A DNA stretch of 35,978 nt, taken from assembly GCA_021782795.1 (NCBI GenBank), contig JAJXUP010000005.1, positions 1 through 35,978 on the forward strand. The letters run 5' to 3'. Position 1 is the first letter of the stretch, and every line of letters begins with the position of its first letter. Source of the DNA: Pseudomonadota bacterium. Its GTDB lineage: Bacteria; Pseudomonadota; Gammaproteobacteria; Burkholderiales; Sulfuriferulaceae. Below are positions 21,672-29,073 of the stretch, piece after piece. A model generated the notes under the pieces. That model did no database searches and was not told the origin of the DNA. It saw only the letters and a program-made list of their open reading frames with translations. The translations under genes and the position numbers were made by a program.

Positions 21672-23806
21672 CCAGGCAGGACGGCCTGTCGGCGCCGGAA
21701 CTGGCTGACTGGAAAGCATCGCTGGCACAACTGGCGGCGGAGTTCGATGCCGATGGGCTGGCACGCCTTGACGCGGTCGCGCAATGGCGCCTCGACGGTC
21801 AGGCATCGGCCATTGCCTGGCCCGATGCGCTCGGGATCGCGATGCTGGTCGCCGGGTTGCATCTCGATGCCGACTGTGTGGCGGCCGTGCTGCTGCTTGG
21901 TTGCGATACCCGGGATGCGCCACTGCCGGCCGAGGCGGTCGTGCTGGCGCAGGGTGTCGAACGGCTGCAGGATATTGGCGGGTTGCTGGCCGGAGAACGC
22001 CGTGACCGGCGAGATGCACAGGGTCAGGCGGAGAACCTGCGTCAGATGCTGCTGGCCATGGTTAGCGACATCCGGGTGGTGCTCATCAAGCTTGCCGAAC
22101 GGCTGCATGCGCTGCGGCGCGCCATCCAGAGCAACGATGCTGCGCTGCAGCGCCAACTGGCGCTCGAAATGCAGGGATTGTTCGCCCCGCTTGCCAACCG
22201 GCTCGGTGTATGGCAGATCAAATGGGAAATGGAAGACCTGGCGTTTCGTATTCTCGATGCCGCCAACTACCAGCGCATTGCGCGCCTGCTCGACGAAAAA
22301 CGGCTGGACCGTGAGCGTTACATTACTGCAGTGGTCGAACGGTTGCGCGCCGAGCTTGATGCAGCCGGAATCCGTGCGCAGGTGACCGGCCGACCCAAAC
22401 ACATCGTCAGCATCATCAACAAGATGAACCGCAAGCATCTGGATTTCGAGCAGATCTATGATATCCGGGCAGTGCGCATTCTGGTCGATGAGGTGCGTGA
22501 CTGCTACGCCGCGCTGGGTCTGGTTCACCACCTGTGGCAGCCGATCGCCGGTGAATTCGACGATTACATCGCCCATCCGAAAAGCAATGATTACCGCTCG
22601 CTGCACACCGGGGTGGTCGGGCCGGAAAGCAAGGCACTCGAAGTGCAGATCCGCACCCACGAAATGCATCACCATGCCGAACTTGGCGTGGCGGCGCACT
22701 GGCGTTACAAGGAAGGCGGCAAATCCGACGCACTGGTCGAACGGATCGCCTGGCTGCGCACGATCCTGAGCTGGAAGGATGAAGTGGCCGGTCAGAACGA
22801 ACTGGCGGGGCTGCTGCGCAATGAACTGTTCCAGGATCGCATCTACGTGCTGACACCGCAGGGTCGGGTCATTGATCTGGAGGCCGGCGCAAGCCCGGTT
22901 GATTTCGCTTACCACGTGCATACCGATCTCGGCCACCGTTGCCGTGGGGCCAAGGTTGATGGTGCGATCGTGCCGCTCAATACTCCGCTCAGAAATGGTC
23001 AGCGCGTGGAGATCCTGGCAGTCAGGCAGGGCGGACCGAGTCGCGACTGGCTGAATCCGGCGCTGGGATATCTGGCCAGTCCGCGGGCGCGCGCCAAGGT
23101 ACGTCATTGGTTTCGTGCCGAGTATTTTGCCGAGCATGTTGCTGCCGGACGTGACGTGCTCGAACGCGAGCAACGCCGCACCCGTCTGACGGATGTCAGT
23201 CACGAGAAACTGGCTGCCCGGTTAGGTCATGCACGGGTGGAGGACATGCTGGCTGCGCTGGGCCGTGGGGAGATCGGCCCGCAAGTGCTGGCAGACGCCA
23301 TGCGTGCACTGAGTCAGCCGATCTCGCCGCTGCGCGATACGACGAAAAACCGGCCACAGCCGGTTGCGGTGACGCAATCGGTTCTGATCGAAGGCGTAGC
23401 CGGGCTGCCAGTGGTACTGGCGCGCTGTTGCAATCCGGCACCGCCAGCGGGCATCGTGGCCTATGCCACCCTCGGCCGCGGCATGACCGTGCACCGACGC
23501 ACCTGTGCGAACATGCTGCGGGTGGATGCCGGGCGCCAGGACCGGTTGCTGGCAGCGTCCTGGAGCGGCGAGACGCAACTGGCTCCTGCGGAGATCCTGG
23601 TGGAGGCGTTTGATCGGCAAGGGTTGTTGCGCGACGTGTCTGCGTTGCTTACGCGGGAGAAAGTGTTCGTGGTGCGCGTCAATACCGAATCAAGCGGCGA
23701 CCTTGCGGAAATGCACTTTCAGGTGCACGCGCATCGGTCGCTTGAGCGGGTGCTGGAAAAGATTCGCAATCTTCCCGACGTATTGCAGGCTGTGCGGCTG
23801 AGCTGA
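21665..23806 (+). CDS. relA: (p)ppGpp synthetase RelA
   Basis: A 713-residue long RelA/SpoT homologue of the monofunctional RelA type. The N-terminal hydrolase-like domain (about 30-200) lacks the HD and following acidic metal-binding motif: where HDxxED is expected the sequence reads LGCDTRDA. It should therefore not degrade (p)ppGpp. The synthetase domain has EFDDYIAHPKSNDYRSLHT, with the acidic EFDD (297-300) typical of RelA rather than the basic version of bifunctional enzymes. TGS (about 390-450) and C-terminal ACT (about 640-713) domains mediate ribosome sensing. The ATG at 21665 overlaps the comEC stop, suggesting coupled translation. A separate SpoT should exist elsewhere in the genome. 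Confidence 0.95.
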   Translation: MVTRQDGLSAPELADWKASLAQLAAEFDADGLARLDAVAQWRLDGQASAIAWPDALGIAMLVAGLHLDADCVAAVLLLGCDTRDAPLPAEAVVLAQGVERLQDIGGLLAGERRDRRDAQGQAENLRQMLLAMVSDIRVVLIKLAERLHALRRAIQSNDAALQRQLALEMQGLFAPLANRLGVWQIKWEMEDLAFRILDAANYQRIARLLDEKRLDRERYITAVVERLRAELDAAGIRAQVTGRPKHIVSIINKMNRKHLDFEQIYDIRAVRILVDEVRDCYAALGLVHHLWQPIAGEFDDYIAHPKSNDYRSLHTGVVGPESKALEVQIRTHEMHHHAELGVAAHWRYKEGGKSDALVERIAWLRTILSWKDEVAGQNELAGLLRNELFQDRIYVLTPQGRVIDLEAGASPVDFAYHVHTDLGHRCRGAKVDGAIVPLNTPLRNGQRVEILAVRQGGPSRDWLNPALGYLASPRARAKVRHWFRAEYFAEHVAAGRDVLEREQRRTRLTDVSHEKLAARLGHARVEDMLAALGRGEIGPQVLADAMRALSQPISPLRDTTKNRPQPVAVTQSVLIEGVAGLPVVLARCCNPAPPAGIVAYATLGRGMTVHRRTCANMLRVDAGRQDRLLAASWSGETQLAPAEILVEAFDRQGLLRDVSALLTREKVFVVRVNTESSGDLAEMHFQVHAHRSLERVLEKIRNLPDVLQAVRLS

Positions 23807-23980
23807 AGGTGTGTCTCGACAAATCTGCGGCACCGGCCAGGGCTGCATTGCTCCGTGCTCGTCCGTTCGCCTGTCTGGTACCGTGCTCTTAAGTATTTAT
23901 ATCAATTTTCGTCAATTTGCAGATATTTTATTTTGCAAACTCCAGAAAAAAATTTTATTTATTTTTACTTAAGTTATTTT

Positions 23981-23999
23981 TAAGCAATATTGTTGCTTA
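23981..23999. repeat. TAAGCAA inverted repeat, with a third copy beside it
   Basis: TAAGCAA-TATTG-TTGCTTA is a perfect inverted repeat with 7-base arms and a 5-base spacer. A further direct copy of TAAGCAA follows at 24001-24007. It sits in the most AT-rich part of the flhDC upstream region, just before the first CCCTAAAGTTT motif. It could be a binding site for a dimeric regulator; there is no direct evidence. Confidence 0.5.
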
Positions 24000-24013
24000 T
24001 TAAGCAATCCCCC

Positions 24014-24040
24014 TAAAGTTTTCTTCAGGCGGTTCGTAAA
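24014..24040 (+). promoter_or_regulatory. Weak sigma28-like motif
   Basis: TAAAGTTT (24014-24021) is a perfect FliA -35 element, preceded by CCC as in the stronger copy downstream. At the N11 spacing the -10 reads TTCGTAAA, matching only about half of GCCGATAA. It may be a degenerate second promoter or only a repeat of the -35 box. Confidence 0.3.
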
Positions 24041-24110
24041 TGGTTCAGATGTCGGTGATTGGGGTTGAAAGTTGCGATGAAAAAAGATGTGATTTTTTTT
24101 CAGGCAACCC

Positions 24111-24137
24111 TAAAGTTTCAGAAACTCCATCCGATAA
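24111..24137 (+). promoter_or_regulatory. Sigma28 (FliA)-type promoter pointing toward flhDC
   Basis: TAAAGTTT (24111-24118), an 11-base spacer and TCCGATAA (24130-24137) match the FliA consensus TAAAGTTT-N11-GCCGATAA at 15 of 16 positions. Expected start of transcription is near 24144, reading toward flhD about 390 bases away. A 13-base palindrome, AGTTTCAGAAACT (24114-24126), overlaps the -35 and spacer and could be an operator. In enteric bacteria flhDC sits above FliA, so a FliA promoter here implies feedback on the master regulator or a separate FliA-dependent RNA. Confidence 0.7.
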
Positions 24138-24150
24138 CTGCTGAAACGGG

Positions 24151-24167
24151 GCAATTTTTTTAATTGC
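24151..24167 (+). other. Hairpin GCAATT-T5-AATTGC in the flhDC leader
   Basis: A 6-bp stem with a five-T loop begins about 7 bases after the predicted start of the sigma28 transcript, so it would lie at the very 5' end of that RNA. It could stabilise the RNA or affect early elongation. It lacks a following T-tract and is AT-rich, so I do not call it a terminator. Confidence 0.35.
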
Positions 24168-24237
24168 TGCGTGTGCCGTAAATCCGGTTTTTTGGTTTCG
24201 CCGAGTCGGTGTCTGTCTGACATGAGATGCGTCCGGG

Positions 24238-24250
24238 GATAACCGTTATC
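24238..24250. repeat. GATAAC-C-GTTATC palindrome
   Basis: A perfect 13-base palindrome in the middle of the flhDC leader region. It is flanked by TCCGG on the left and CCGGA on the right, which can pair around it. It may be a protein-binding site or part of an RNA stem. Confidence 0.35.
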
Positions 24251-24300
24251 AACAGCAACCGGATGTTTTTGTTGTTTTTTATCAGATTGTGGTTCTTGAG

Positions 24301-24317
24301 GCCAATAAAAAATTGGC
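24301..24317 (+). other. Hairpin GCCAAT-A5-ATTGGC in the flhDC leader
   Basis: A perfect 6-bp stem with a five-A loop, the same geometry as the T-loop hairpin at 24151. It is followed by TGTTTCTGCT rather than a clean T-run, so termination is doubtful. It may be the 3' structure of a short RNA started at the sigma28 promoter, or a leader element. Confidence 0.35.
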
Positions 24318-24536
24318 TGTTTCTGCTCGTCTGTAGGTTTTTATCTGTCACGCCTCCCTCCCTGGTTTCGTACATAAAATACGGAATCGTGCTTATTTTC
24401 GCTTTTTTTCATCCGTACCAATATGCAGCCATGCCGGCGGAATTGGTGCGCGGTGCAAACCGGAATCGCTCAACAGGATTTGCATCCGCGTACTGACCGC
24501 ATAAGACTTGTGCAGGATGATTTAAGGGGGAACGTG

Positions 24537-24854
24537 ATGACTGCCAATGACCTGTTGTCCGAGATTCGCGACGCCAATCTGAATTACCTGATGCTGGCCC
24601 AGCAGATGATCCGTGCCGATCGTGAGACGGCGATTTTTCGCCTGGGCGTCGACGGTCAGATTGCCGAGCTGCTCGAAGGGTTGAGTAATGCTCAGCTGTT
24701 GCGACTGGCATCGAGCAACATGATGTTGGCGCGGTTCCGTTTCGAGGACAGCGCCATCCTGGGCATGCTGACGCATCCGCACAAGGATCGTGCTTTGGGG
24801 CATGCGCATTCTGCCATCCTCATGGCCGGTCAGCCGGTCGAAGAAGCGCACTGA
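24537..24854 (+). CDS. flhD: Flagellar transcriptional activator FlhD
   Basis: A 105-residue FlhD, half of the FlhD4C2 master activator of flagellar class II genes. The N-terminus NDLLSEIRDANLNYLMLAQQ is characteristic, and the DNA-contacting helix region around residues 75-95 is intact. There is no cysteine, so the intersubunit disulfide of E. coli FlhD cannot form. The ATG at 24537 is preferred over the GTG at 24534 because of spacing from GGGGG at 24526-24530. flhC follows after 13 bases. Its upstream region is long and AT-rich with a FliA-type promoter, suggesting complex control. Confidence 0.94.
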   Translation: MTANDLLSEIRDANLNYLMLAQQMIRADRETAIFRLGVDGQIAELLEGLSNAQLLRLASSNMMLARFRFEDSAILGMLTHPHKDRALGHAHSAILMAGQPVEEAH

Positions 24855-24867
24855 TACGGAGGCCGCC

Positions 24868-25422
24868 ATGGCAAAAACCAGCGTCATGACCGAAGCCCAG
24901 GATATTCAGCTTGCCATCGACCTGATCAGGCTGGGCGCACGCCTCCAGTTGCTGGAGTCGGAGACATCGTTGTCGCGCGAGCGTCTGCTCAAGCTGTACA
25001 AGGAACTCAAGGGTGCATCGCCTCCCAAAGGTATGCTGCCGTTTTCTTCGGACTGGTTTCTGACATGGCAGCCGAACATTCATGCGTCGATTTTCATGAA
25101 CGTCTATCGCTACCTGCAGCGTCACGCTGATGTGGACGGTATCCAGGCGATCATGAAAGCCTTCCGTCTGTATCTTGAGCAGGTCGACCCGGTGGCTGAG
25201 GGTGAAGAACCGGTGTTGTCGCTCACCCGGGCCTGGACGCTGGTGCGTTTCATCGACCACGGCATGCTGTCGATGGCGCGTTGCGACAAGTGCGGCGGCC
25301 ATTTCGTGGTTGACCGCTTCGATCTCCACGCGCATTATGTGTGCGGTTTGTGTCACATGCCATCGCGCGCGGGAAAAACCCGCAAGGCGCGCGAACAGAC
25401 GGCGCTGCAGGCGGCGTGCTGA
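24868..25422 (+). CDS. flhC: Flagellar transcriptional activator FlhC
   Basis: A 184-residue FlhC, the partner of FlhD. The zinc site is complete: Cys139 and Cys142 (CDKC) with Cys159 and Cys162 (CGLC), nearly the numbering of E. coli. DNA recognition residues lie mostly in this subunit. The frame opens at 24790 inside flhD, but the ATG at 24868 has a good GGAGG and gives the family N-terminus (AQDIQLAIDLIRLGARLQLLE). The presence of flhDC limits the host to beta- or gammaproteobacteria, since others use different flagellar master regulators. Confidence 0.95.
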   Translation: MAKTSVMTEAQDIQLAIDLIRLGARLQLLESETSLSRERLLKLYKELKGASPPKGMLPFSSDWFLTWQPNIHASIFMNVYRYLQRHADVDGIQAIMKAFRLYLEQVDPVAEGEEPVLSLTRAWTLVRFIDHGMLSMARCDKCGGHFVVDRFDLHAHYVCGLCHMPSRAGKTRKAREQTALQAAC

Positions 25423-25504
25423 GTCGCGCATCGCCCCGGTGGCTGAATTCCGGGGTGGAAGCAGGTTGTCAGATTCTCTCAGGTTTCGTTTCATCCGCTG
25501 GCCC

Positions 25505-26242
25505 ATGACACAGGCGCTGGCCATCCAGGCCGGCGTCGTGCTGTTTCAGGCGCTGGCCTGGTGGCTATGGTTGCACTGGTGGCCCAGCGCATCGCCTGCA
25601 TTGGGGGTGGTTGCGCTGGTGCAGGGCGTGCTCTCGGCCATGATTTCTTTCTGGATCGGCATGGCGCTGTGGTGGTGGCTGATCCAGCTGACTTTCCCGC
25701 TGGTCGTGCTGGCTGCCGTGGCCGTGCATTGGCCGGTCGCAGTGTACGCCGGCCTGTTCAGCGTGCTGTGGCTGGGATACTGGCACACATTCCGCACGCA
25801 AGTACCCTATTACCCCTCCTCACCGGCAGTATGGCGCGCGGTGCAGGACTGCCTGCCGGCCGGGCGGCCATGTCGTGCGATCGATCTCGGCAGTGGCCTG
25901 GGCGGGCTGGTGCTGCACCTGGCGCGCACGCGCTCCGACTGTCGCGTCACGGGAGCTGAGCTGGCACCACTGCCGTGGCTGACGAGTCGGTTGCGCGCAA
26001 TGGGGCTGCCAAACGTATTCCTGCGGCGCGTGGATTACCATTCACTGGATCTGGGCGAGTATGACCTGGTGTTTGCCTACCTGTCTCCTGCGGCGATGCC
26101 TGCGCTCTGGCGCAAGGCGCAGCAGGAAATGCGGCCGGGCAGCGTGCTGCTCAGTTATGAGTTTGTCATCCCGGATCAGCCGGCAGATCGTCAGATTCAC
26201 CTGCCAGGCATGCATTCCTTGCTGTATGCATGGTATATTTGA
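25505..26242 (+). CDS. Membrane-anchored SAM methyltransferase, FAM173-like
   Basis: A 245-residue protein with about four tryptophan-rich hydrophobic segments (roughly 5-25, 34-53, 55-75, 78-92) followed by a class I methyltransferase domain. Motif I is AIDLGSGLGG (125-134). The later segments GAELAPLPWL, SRLRA, EYDLVFAYLSP and the EMRPGS strand resemble the FAM173 group, which includes the mitochondrial ATP-synthase c-subunit lysine methyltransferase. Membrane anchoring plus this domain suggests a membrane protein substrate, possibly a lysine. It lies between flhC and motA on the same strand, so a stator or flagellar target is conceivable, but nothing in the sequence proves it. The start is uncertain: ATG 25505 is used, and a TTG at 25466 is also possible. 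Confidence 0.72.
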   Translation: MTQALAIQAGVVLFQALAWWLWLHWWPSASPALGVVALVQGVLSAMISFWIGMALWWWLIQLTFPLVVLAAVAVHWPVAVYAGLFSVLWLGYWHTFRTQVPYYPSSPAVWRAVQDCLPAGRPCRAIDLGSGLGGLVLHLARTRSDCRVTGAELAPLPWLTSRLRAMGLPNVFLRRVDYHSLDLGEYDLVFAYLSPAAMPALWRKAQQEMRPGSVLLSYEFVIPDQPADRQIHLPGMHSLLYAWYI

Positions 26243-26324
26243 CGCGTTGTAGGGGAGATTGCTGTCATGCAGGCCGGTACGGCAATGCCTGCAGAAATGA
26301 CCGGCGTTGAACGGGGAGTGCTGA

Positions 26325-27176
26325 GTGTTTGTCATTATCGGTTATGCAGTGGTGCTGAGCGCGATATTCGGGGGATTTGCGCTCGCTGGCGGGCATCTTG
26401 CGGCATTGTTGCAGCCGATCGAACTGCTGATGATTTTTGGCGGCGCGATCGGAGCGTTTTTTGTTGGAAACAACAACAAGGCTGTCAAGGCTACGGTCAA
26501 AGCCCTGCCTACGGTTTTCAAGGGGTCGGCCTACACCAAGGCGTTGTATATGGATTTGCTGGCCCTGCTCTACGATCTGTTGACCAAGGTGCGCAAGGAA
26601 GGGTTGATGTCGATCGAAAACGACGTGGAAAATCCGGAGAGCAGCCCGTTGTTCGGCAAGTACCCGAATGTGATCAAGGATCACCACGTGGTCGAATTCA
26701 TGACCGACTACCTGCGCCTCATGGTGTCCGGCAACATGGATGCGCTGCAGATCGAAAACCTGATGGACAACGAACTGGAAACGCATCACCACGAAGGGGC
26801 GGTGCCGGTGCATGCGCTAAGCAAGCTGGCCGACGGACTGCCGGCTTTCGGTATCGTGGCCGCGGTCATGGGGGTGGTGCACACCATGGAGTCGGTGGGC
26901 GCTCCGCCGGCCGAACTGGGCATGCTGATTGCGCATGCGCTGGTGGGTACTTTCCTCGGCATTCTGCTGTCCTATGGTTTTGTTGGTCCGCTGGCCGGGT
27001 TGCTGGAACAGAAACTCGACGAATCGAGCAAGATGCTGCATTGCGTGAAGACGACCCTGCTGGCCAGCCTGAACGGGTTTGCGCCTTCGCTTGCGGTCGA
27101 GTTCGGTCGCAAGGTCCTGTACTCGACCGAGCGTCCCGGTTTTGCCGAGCTGGAAGAGCATGTCAAGAGAAAATGA
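26325..27176 (+). CDS. motA: Flagellar motor stator protein MotA
   Basis: A 283-residue MotA, the ring of the proton-driven stator. Four membrane helices are visible. The cytoplasmic loop charges that interact with FliG are at the same numbers as in E. coli, Arg90 and Glu98, and Pro173 (LADGLPAFG) is also conserved at the same position. The start is GTG at 26325 with GGGGAG at 26313-26318. motB follows after 50 bases with its own ribosome-binding site. No separate sigma28 promoter is evident directly upstream, so transcription probably comes from the flhDC side or from within the methyltransferase gene. Confidence 0.97.
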   Translation: MFVIIGYAVVLSAIFGGFALAGGHLAALLQPIELLMIFGGAIGAFFVGNNNKAVKATVKALPTVFKGSAYTKALYMDLLALLYDLLTKVRKEGLMSIENDVENPESSPLFGKYPNVIKDHHVVEFMTDYLRLMVSGNMDALQIENLMDNELETHHHEGAVPVHALSKLADGLPAFGIVAAVMGVVHTMESVGAPPAELGMLIAHALVGTFLGILLSYGFVGPLAGLLEQKLDESSKMLHCVKTTLLASLNGFAPSLAVEFGRKVLYSTERPGFAELEEHVKRK

Positions 27177-27226
27177 GGCCAAGGGCACCGGCTACGGGGT
27201 GCCGTGCAGGGTATTTTTGGGGGTGA

Positions 27227-28189
27227 ATGGTGGCTGAAGCCCGTCCCATCGTCGTCAAGCGCATCAAGAAGGTGGCTGGTGGTCATCACGGGGGGGCATG
27301 GAAGATCGCGTACGCCGACTTTGTCACGGCCATGATGGCGTTTTTTCTGTTGATGTGGCTGCTGGGTTCGACGACAAAAGGTGACCTGAAAGGCATCGCC
27401 GATTATTTTGCCACGCCACTCAAGGTGGCGCTGGAAGGCGGTTCTGGCAGCGGCGACAGTTCGAGCATCATCAAGGGGGGAGGGAAAGACCTGACGCGGG
27501 ATTCAGGTCAGGTCTCCAAAGCATCCAACCCCAAGATCAAGAAGACGATCGACCTGAAGGAGGCCAAAGCCGATCTCGAACACATGGATCTGGAGCGCCT
27601 CAAACTGCTCAAGTCACAGATTGAACATGCGATCGATGCCAATCCGGTGCTCAAGCAGTTCAAGAAGCAGATGCTGCTCGACATCACTACCGAAGGGTTG
27701 CGCATCCAGATCGTCGATGAACAGAACCGGCCAATGTTCGCTTCGGCGCGGGCTGAACTCGAACCGTATACCAAGGATATTTTGCATGCCATCGGCCAGA
27801 TGCTCAACAACGTGCCCAACCGTATCAGCCTGACCGGACACACCGATGCGACGCCTTATGCCAATGGCGGTACGTCTTACAGCAACTGGGAGTTGTCGTC
27901 CGACCGCGCCAATGCGGCACGGCGTGAACTGATCGCAGGTGGCATGGACGAAGGCAAGGTGCTGCGTGTGGTGGGCATGGCTTCGGCCATTCCTCTCGAC
28001 AAGAGCAATCCTTACGATCCGGTCAATCGGCGCATCAGCATCATCGTGCTCAACAAGAAAACCGAGGATGCTATCGTGCGCGATGGCGCGGTACTCAATG
28101 CCAGCAATGGCAAGGAGGTATCCGCGGGACTGAAAGTGAACACAGTGGCCGGCGCAGTGAGCGTTGCGCCCGGTAAAAGCGCCCAGTAG
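27227..28189 (+). CDS. motB: Flagellar motor stator protein MotB
   Basis: A 320-residue MotB. A short cytoplasmic N-terminus rich in Lys and Arg precedes the single membrane helix, AYADFVTAMMAFFLLMWLLG, with the ion-carrying Asp31. A linker and plug region follow, then the OmpA-like peptidoglycan-binding domain (about 165-285) with ISLTGHTDATPY, SSDRANAARREL and NRRISIIVL. Residue pattern and Asp context suggest a proton-type stator. The ATG at 27227 follows a run of Gs suitable as ribosome-binding site. Its stop lies in a hairpin shared with the convergent pan operon end. Confidence 0.97.
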   Translation: MVAEARPIVVKRIKKVAGGHHGGAWKIAYADFVTAMMAFFLLMWLLGSTTKGDLKGIADYFATPLKVALEGGSGSGDSSSIIKGGGKDLTRDSGQVSKASNPKIKKTIDLKEAKADLEHMDLERLKLLKSQIEHAIDANPVLKQFKKQMLLDITTEGLRIQIVDEQNRPMFASARAELEPYTKDILHAIGQMLNNVPNRISLTGHTDATPYANGGTSYSNWELSSDRANAARRELIAGGMDEGKVLRVVGMASAIPLDKSNPYDPVNRRISIIVLNKKTEDAIVRDGAVLNASNGKEVSAGLKVNTVAGAVSVAPGKSAQ

Positions 28190-28194
28190 GCGCT
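28178..28194 (-). terminator. Candidate terminator of the panC-side operon
   Basis: AGCGCC-TACTG-GGCGCT read on the minus strand is a perfect 6-bp GC-rich stem with a 5-base loop, followed directly by a short T-run (TTT counted after the stem's last T). It lies about 35 bases beyond the panC stop and covers the motB stop codon. On the plus strand the stem lacks a T-tract. The stem is short and the T-run weak, so efficiency is doubtful. Confidence 0.4.
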
Positions 28195-28227
28195 GCCAGC
28201 CGGGCGATTCACCGGGAGCCGTTTTGC

Positions 28228-29073
28228 TCAGCCGGGTGTTGTGACAATGAATTCGAGATTGTCGATGAGTCGGGTCTCGCCCAGACGCGCAGCGCCGAGC
28301 ACGACCAGATCGCGCGTTGCCGCTTGCGGTGGATCGAGCCTGCGGTCACGGACGCGGATGTAGTCGGGCTGCCAGCCTGCGGTCGCGAGTGCGGCTTCGG
28401 CTTCGTTTTCCAGGCGGGTCAGGTCGTGCAGGCCATGCCGTTGAACCTGCGCGGCGACAGATGTCAGCGTGGCGTAGAGTTGTGCTGCCTGTTCGCGTTG
28501 CCCGGCACTCAGGTACTGGTTGCGTGACGACAGCGCCAGGCCATCGTCGGCGCGCAGCGTTTCCCCGCCGAGGATCTCGATCGGCACATTGAATGCTTCT
28601 GCCATCAGCCGGATCAGCGTCAACTGTTGGTAGTCCTTTTTACCGAAGCAGGCCATATCGGGCTGCAGCAGTTGCAGCAGTTTCATCACGATGGTGGCGA
28701 CGCCGCGAAAATGTCCCGGACGGCTGCGGCCGCACAGATCCTGTGCCAGTGGCGGCAATTCGATGTGACAGGTTTGCGGTATCGGAAACAGGGTGGCTGC
28801 ATCCGGGGCAAACAGCAGCCCGGTGCCGACAGACTCGAGTTGTTCGATGTCTGCGGCAAGCGTGCGTGGATAACGGTCGAAATCCTCACCCGCGCCAAAT
28901 TGCAGCGGATTGACAAAAATGCTGACGGCAACATGCTGCGCATGCTGCTGTGCCAGTCGCACCAGCGACAGGTGGCCTGCGTGCAGATTGCCCATGGTGG
29001 GCACGAAGCCTAGCGGGCCGGTCAGTTGCCGCCGCCATTGGCGTAGTGCGGCGATGTCATGTATGACCTTCAT
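28228..29073 (-). CDS. panC: Pantothenate synthetase
   Basis: A 281-residue pantoate-beta-alanine ligase, the last step of pantothenate (vitamin B5) synthesis. It has the nucleotidyltransferase HxGH motif HAGH (31-34) after FVPTMGNL. SIFVNPLQFGAGEDFDRYPR and FGKKDYQQL form the pantoate and ATP site, and SSRNQYLS is the KMSKS-like loop. Length matches E. coli PanC. The start overlaps the panB stop by 4 bases. It is the last gene of a six-gene minus-strand cluster and is convergent with motB. Confidence 0.97.
   Translation of the reverse strand: MKVIHDIAALRQWRRQLTGPLGFVPTMGNLHAGHLSLVRLAQQHAQHVAVSIFVNPLQFGAGEDFDRYPRTLAADIEQLESVGTGLLFAPDAATLFPIPQTCHIELPPLAQDLCGRSRPGHFRGVATIVMKLLQLLQPDMACFGKKDYQQLTLIRLMAEAFNVPIEILGGETLRADDGLALSSRNQYLSAGQREQAAQLYATLTSVAAQVQRHGLHDLTRLENEAEAALATAGWQPDYIRVRDRRLDPPQAATRDLVVLGAARLGETRLIDNLEFIVTTPG

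Follow-up and report, generated by a model that had tools for sequence, protein, structure and literature searches.

Tandem sigma28-type sites upstream of the flhDC-motAB row in a Sulfuriferula genome suggest a FliA input to the flagellar master operon

Tandem sigma28-type sites and the flhD-motB gene row

The window, which is the whole stretch of DNA that was analysed (35,978 nucleotides of contig JAJXUP010000005.1), corresponds to contig C34 of a 2.1-Mb metagenome-assembled genome in 205 contigs whose genus was taken as Sulfuriferula. Five plus-strand genes, flhD-flhC-methyltransferase-motA-motB, form a row with gaps of 13, 82, 82 and 50 bases, followed on the opposite strand by panC and panB. 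The features of the locus are the following:

ends at 23806: relA/spoT-type gene, followed by a 730-base gap before flhD
24014-24040, plus strand: distal tandem sigma28-type site TAAAGTTTtcttcaggcggTTCGTAAA, 21.6 bits, 4 mismatches to the strict consensus
24091-24110, plus strand: T tract, then CAGGCAACCC, immediately 5' of the proximal site
24111-24137, plus strand: putative proximal sigma28 (FliA)-type promoter, TAAAGTTT-N11-TCCGATAA, 1 mismatch, 26.5 bits
24144-24536, plus strand: leader predicted for a FliA transcript from the proximal site, whose start would lie 7 bases past the -10
24371-24426, plus strand: conserved block TACATAAAATACGG ... CAATATGC, from the phylogenetic footprint of 12 genus leaders
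24537-24854, plus strand: flhD (Pfam FlhD, E=3.6e-42; NCBIfam PRK02909)
24868-25422, plus strand: flhC (Pfam FlhC, E=5.3e-88; NCBIfam PRK12722)
25505-26242, plus strand: methyltransferase-like gene, with a weak match to Pfam Methyltransf_25 that stays below the cut-off
26325-27176, plus strand: motA (NCBIfam MotA1, 9.8e-123)
27227-28189, plus strand: motB (Pfam and NCBIfam)

The start of the methyltransferase-like gene is a predicted one, the N-terminal part of its product is hydrophobic, and an NCBIfam search with it gave no match. In 34 of 128 flhDC loci (families f1, f8, f26, f30, f43 and f17), a gene of this kind occupies the interval from flhC to motA. In one genus mate (G011, C1:1662211-1662728), flhC was matched in two frames as overlapping pieces, which points to a frameshift or an assembly error.

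A first-pass annotation of this DNA had described a near-perfect sigma28 site reading toward flhD, and our analysis bears this out. The proximal site consists of TAAAGTTT (24111-24118), an 11-base spacer and TCCGATAA (24130-24137) on the plus strand, and agrees with the consensus TAAAGTTT-N11-GCCGATAA in 15 of 16 letters, the sole mismatch being T for G. It is the only site with at most 3 mismatches in the window, where shuffles led to an expectation of 0.02. A weight matrix was trained on flagellin upstream regions only, 61 of 83 of which contained a site of at most 4 mismatches, and its consensus is again TAAAGTTT GCCGATAA, with a perfect score of 27.0 bits. Over the window, this matrix placed 24111 first (26.5 bits) and 24014 second (21.6 bits), the third place reaching 11.6 bits; 200 column-permuted matrices gave a maximum of 21.6 bits on the plus strand and none gave 26.5. 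The distal site, absent from the first-pass annotation which listed the proximal one alone, lies 97 bp upstream of it, and both point to flhD. The A/T tract and CCC context that precedes the proximal site was seen again in the leaders of relatives. The distance from a start near 24144 to the flhD ATG at 24537 is 393 nt, in agreement with the leader of about 390 bases given previously.

The same genome codes for the sigma factor FliA (contig C85, 10170-10835, E=1.2e-83) and for FlgM (contig C166, E=1.8e-20). Genome-wide, nine places carry the motif with at most 3 mismatches and the reversed control pattern yields ten, so the count alone is uninformative and it is the positions that carry the information. 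All four places with 1-2 mismatches, and one of the five with 3, fall at flhD, flgM, flgK and flagellin (two); the site-to-gene gap is 37 bp for flgM and 29 bp for flgK, with the flagellin match 126 and 213 bp downstream. The remaining four places, each with 3 mismatches, are without gene assignment. Of 30 flagellin loci fetched for the genus, 16 were read, and 11 of these (L282-L290, L292 and L293) exhibited two sigma28 sites at a spacing of 85-88 bp. Since flagellin genes are mostly preceded by such pairs, a tandem pair appears as the usual form of the late promoter in this genus. With FliA and FlgM present and the motif found at flgM, flgK and fliC, the flhD site would be a promoter of the late-class type, and the proximal site is very probably a FliA promoter. 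A FliA promoter aimed at flhDC, as proposed from the first reading, is thus strongly supported by the presence of both regulators, by the motif at the three late genes and by the conservation of its position.

Conservation of the sites and position of the putative motAB promoter

The earlier proposal to look for the motif upstream of flhD in related genomes could be followed in two sets of loci, which gave the site in 47 of 128 and in 70 of 78 of them, respectively. For the first set, FlhC was matched in 143 of 399 Burkholderiales genomes; 20 genomes with only weak FlhC matches were left out, and 124 stretches from 122 genomes were fetched, together with four genus mates (G001, G002, G009 and G015) and the window, i.e. 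129 regions. In 128 of them flhD stands beside flhC, one region (L199, genome G340) being dropped for want of an adjacent flhD. In the 700 bp preceding flhD, a search for the strict motif (at most 3 mismatches) found it in 43 of the 128 regions in forward orientation and in 5 in reverse, while 40 letter-permuted motifs applied to the same regions averaged 0.125 forward, with 1 as the maximum. The flagellin matrix, with the cut-off for each region set from a simulated null at 1%, gave 47 regions with forward matches, 19 with tandem ones and 12 with reverse ones; these 12 of 128 exceed the 1% null, so that either the null is too permissive or some regions contain divergent promoters. A flagellin gene adjoins flhDC divergently in families f3, f10, f11, f20, f23, f38 and f49, which may account for some of the reverse-strand matches. 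The sites are concentrated in a few families: 12 of 15 loci in the window's genus (f1), 9 of 11 in Oxalobacteraceae (f8), 5 of 6 in Methylophilaceae (f26), 6 of 10 in f25, 7 of 7 in f42, 1 of 1 in f30 and 2 of 2 in f43, compared to 5 of 76 in all remaining families.

The second set comprised the best 80 named relatives by FlhC similarity, some of whose genomes also belong to the 128. Two loci were excluded, one on a contig ending inside flhD (L143) and one with flhD not beside flhC (L147). Two or more sites are present in 58 of the 78 usable loci and three or more in 19; all loci of Massilia (16/16), Duganella (7/7) and Janthinobacterium (4/4) carry the site. Three Massilia leaders (L113, L132 and L109) show three to four consecutive units of about 75-85 bp, each made of an A/T tract, CCC and the sigma28 motif. 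On a tree of FlhD and FlhC, the four label classes defined by site and methyltransferase gene need 16 changes compared to 48.6 after shuffling, and the site alone needs 14. The sites occur mainly in two clades: one, to which the window belongs, with the methyltransferase gene nearly always between flhC and motA and a site in 29 of 36 rows, and one formed by f25 and f42 with a site in 12 of 16 rows.

The motAB genes, normally late, sit in the window downstream of flhDC and lack a sigma28 site of their own, a point that the first-pass annotation did not raise. From the last 150 bp of flhC to motA, the matrix found no sigma28 site of at least 10 bits; by strict consensus, the interval from flhC to motA offers no match with fewer than 6 mismatches and flhC itself none with 5 or fewer. 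Relatives that lack the flhD site usually have one at motA: the three Sulfuriferula genomes concerned score 16.7 bits there (G001 and G007) or a weak 11.4 bits (G002), and the Methylophilaceae genome G204 scores 16.3 bits. In the same way, the eight named loci that lack the flhD site, which are all Herbaspirillum, each have a sigma28 site upstream of motA. Where the methyltransferase gene is present and motA could be located, 20 loci have the site at flhD only, 6 at both places, 4 at motA only and 1 at neither at the threshold used, a trade-off with a Fisher p of 0.027 without tree correction; on the tree, it comes down to 2 independent pairs, too few for a test. A single sigma28 input per row, placed either before or after flhDC, is a lead and not a proof. 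A strict either/or placement over all families was rejected: both sites occur together in 10 of 103 loci (and in 10 of 76 named loci), with a Fisher odds ratio of 2.7 and p=0.10, in the wrong direction.

A putative FliA-flhDC feedback and its alternatives

Ten of 12 aligned genus leaders share, at the proximal site, a conserved island composed of a T/A tract, AACCC, TAAAGTTT, a variable spacer of constant length and the -10, and in the other two (G003 and G008) the site lies farther upstream. The 150-200 bases 3' of the proximal site are variable. The block at 24371-24426, judged from its conservation, is probably the ordinary (class I) promoter or control region of flhDC, together with a regulator site; a simple sigma70 scan of 23700-24700 found no promoter. 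A loose scan of 23800-28260 gave 11 terminator-like patterns on both strands against 4.2 ± 2.1 expected from shuffles; those on the plus strand include two within the leader and four entries, at three places, between flhD and motA. As these patterns are above the shuffles, read-through toward flhDC and motAB may be interrupted. A stricter scan covering 40 leaders from all families placed a terminator-like hairpin between the site and flhD in 4 of them, where 0.7 would be expected; one belongs to the genus and three to f42, and the window has none. A pairing of the window RBS (24526-24530) with CCTCC near 24356-24360 was considered and rejected, the accessibility being 0.34 compared to 0.31 with shuffled upstream sequence, i.e. 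not lower.

The sites upstream of flhD are, in all likelihood, functional, given their conservation, and the reading that we favour, with somewhat better than even confidence, is that the tandem FliA promoters drive the whole flhDC-methyltransferase-motAB row with a positive feedback on FlhDC. Once FliA is freed from FlgM, the two promoters, which precede flhD by about 430 and 520 bp, would fire and give a transcript covering flhD, flhC, the methyltransferase gene, motA and motB, by which motAB would obtain its late-class transcription. As flhDC lies between the promoters and motAB, FlhDC would be raised too, and the layout would lead to a positive loop from FlhDC to FliA and back to FlhDC, provided that FlhDC controls fliA here as it does in enterics, which we assume by analogy. 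A separate promoter near flhD, in the block at 24371-24426, would ensure the first, FliA-independent expression that starts the cascade.

A different reading, which we regard as unlikely, is that transcription from the FliA promoters yields a separate small RNA, or a leader RNA, controlling flhD or other mRNAs, and that little of it enters flhDC. Besides the terminator-like patterns described above, it draws on loci of the Gallionellaceae type, where a promoter placed in the same way goes with a predicted RNA of two hairpins, one loop of which is antisense to the flhD RBS, and on one genus leader (G004) that folds strongly (z -4.46). The results obtained in the window's genus speak against it. 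In 12 leaders of the window family, the longest antisense match to the flhD RBS was 5.67 nt compared to 5.37 nt after shuffling, with 1 of 12 at a shuffle p of 0.05 or less; a duplex test in the family gave a mean z of 0.05, and RBS pairing was unchanged between real and shuffled sequences in 10 leaders. Folding is mild, with a mean z of -1.46 for the genus and -1.69 for the window, the sequence following the site is poorly conserved, and a search of the window for known RNA families at gathering thresholds gave none. An RNA model of the Gallionellaceae element has no match in the window or in its genome, and this model also misses known members. The tests in the window's genus gave no sign of a structured RNA of the Gallionellaceae kind, with its anti-RBS loop downstream of the promoter. 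The suggestion in the first-pass annotation of a FliA-dependent RNA in the leader is therefore unsupported in this genus, with no anti-RBS segment, no effect on RBS pairing, low conservation and mild folding; such an RNA is clearly indicated instead in the Gallionellaceae-type family.

Transcription from the FliA promoters could also run over the ordinary flhDC promoter and silence it by interference, which would make the loop negative. The block at 24371-24426 begins about 230 and 330 bp beyond the ends of the two sites, which read across it, as this would require. Such a transcript, however, would include flhD itself with no extra blocking of the RBS predicted, and the three or more sites found in 19 of the 78 named relatives would fit strong expression better, so that we hold this alternative to be improbable. 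A chance motif or functionless relic, which the equality of loose genome-wide matches with the control and the 3 of 15 genus flhDC loci without a site might suggest, is very improbable in view of the exact 11-base spacing, conserved with a varying spacer sequence and far above permuted motifs.

In teaching, flhDC stands at the top of the flagellar cascade with fliA a layer below, and the textbook E. coli scheme is without this feedback wiring from FliA to flhDC. An effect of FliA on flhD was reportedly described by Kutsukake in 1997. A conserved FliA promoter directly before flhDC would make the cascade a loop in a large bacterial group. The positive loop, if true, predicts switch-like motility, possibly as an all-or-none switch.

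The arrangement of FliA and flhDC would be a new wiring of known parts. The FliA ChIP-seq study of E. coli gives 52 sites, none of them assigned to flhD and one inside flhC for motAB (PMC4183435). The E. coli class III promoters have the same -35, -10 and spacing, and flgMN, flgKL and fliC likewise have FliA sites, but motAB-cheAW is FliA-driven from inside flhC, whereas here the sites precede the whole flhDC-motAB row (PMC4183435). In Azotobacter vinelandii, flhDC has a putative RpoD promoter and a FliA sequence is located between flhC and motA (PMC2885672). The resemblance to the window is that motAB comes after flhDC and has a FliA sequence to serve it, yet the placement is that of Herbaspirillum and some Sulfuriferula and not that of the window (PMC2885672). 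Feedback of flagellar products on the master regulator would be shared with Salmonella, where the portions of the sources at hand describe control of FlhDC via FliZ, RflM and FliT (PMC5809477, PMC4563271); the Salmonella loops are made of protein regulators, while here a FliA promoter would stand directly before flhDC. Among the matches listed in the open-licence literature, there was no report of a FliA promoter before flhDC in Burkholderiales and none of a flhD-leader RNA in Gallionellaceae.

The flhD leader element of the Gallionellaceae-type family

The family f25, which we take to be the Gallionellaceae, its two single-contig members presumably being Sideroxydans lithotrophicus ES-1 and Gallionella capsiferriformans ES-2, was represented by 58 flhD leaders from 57 genomes. 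In 37 of them, a sigma28 site of at least 9 bits is followed by a C-rich stretch about 23 bases past the -10; 19 leaders are without a sigma28 site, four of which still contain CCCCT(T/C)G. The stretch is mostly GTCCCCTCGC or GTCCCCTTGC and is antisense to the flhD RBS. In 25 leaders, the mean longest exact antisense match to the RBS was 9.24 nt compared to 5.35 nt after shuffling, with 19 of 25 at a shuffle p of 0.05 or less and 21 of 25 at RNA position 15-18, these related sequences not being independent and C-rich loops matching many RBSs. One base covaries between loop and RBS: a loop T goes with the RBS CAAGGGG in 11 of 12 leaders and a loop C with CGAGGGG in 19 of 21, as counted by hand, with 4 leaders having other loops and one genome present twice. 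Against this covariation, CGAGGGG is also found in family members whose leaders lack the element.

Most of these RNAs are predicted to fold as two hairpins. Of 39 leaders scoring at least 9 bits, two were dropped as false sites without the element (L205 and L417), one as coming from the same genome as L411 (L389) and one as a near copy of L379 (L381). The resulting 35 elements have a mean folding z of -4.9, with 32 at -2.6 or below, and 20 have at least 6 T in the 12 bases after the stem end, a count made with no shuffled control. In a 16-row alignment of hairpin 1, both-side changes are seen in 7 of 14 pairs (17 cells) and 78% of the cells are paired; in 500 shuffles these figures were attained 18 and 2 times, and all slid versions stayed below them. 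RNAalifold returned no structure on the 35-row alignment A2, in which the second stems are probably misaligned, and Rfam at gathering thresholds gave no match in the loci of ten relatives. Out of 398 genomes in the order, the RNA model R1 (19 rows, 15 pairs kept) matches 2, which belong to f25 and have the match at flhD. Six element-bearing f25 genomes are present in a sample drawn in the same way and just 2 were found, so that the absence of R1 matches from the window and its genome is a weak negative. The element spans about 90-100 nt (L411:460-559, plus strand; L410:423-522, plus strand), has the antisense segment in the first of its loops and is present in leaders among L379-L427 and in L187, L190, L215, L218, L224 and L235.

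From its antisense loop and fold, the f25 element is a probable FliA-dependent small RNA repressing flhD, which would possibly make the FliA feedback negative in Gallionellaceae. Sigma28-dependent small RNAs have been described in the flagellar network of E. coli (UhpU, MotR and FliX; Melamed et al. 2023, PMC10578931) and in C. jejuni (CJnc170, PMC11187230). The Gallionellaceae RNA would be similar to these in being FliA-driven, but none of the four, as presented in the parts of these papers available, has both a place immediately before flhD and a loop antisense to the flhD RBS. The Gallionellaceae RNA would amount to another solution of the same problem, this time relying on RNA and encoded at the same position. 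A wider view, to which we give a little less than an even chance, is that FliA control of flhDC is widespread in Burkholderiales with opposite signs, positive via tandem promoters in Sulfuriferula, Oxalobacteraceae and Methylophilaceae, and negative in Gallionellaceae via a small RNA loop antisense to the flhD RBS.

Two further elements were observed in the flhD leaders. A palindrome of the GTTTGT(C/A)AGACAAAC type is found at -120 to -180 of flhD in Oxalobacteraceae and Methylophilaceae (L113, L132, L109, L018 and L156), and GTAGG-N-CCTAC repeats are found near the same place in the Gallionellaceae and f42 leaders. The palindrome and the repeats are possibly the site of one regulator.
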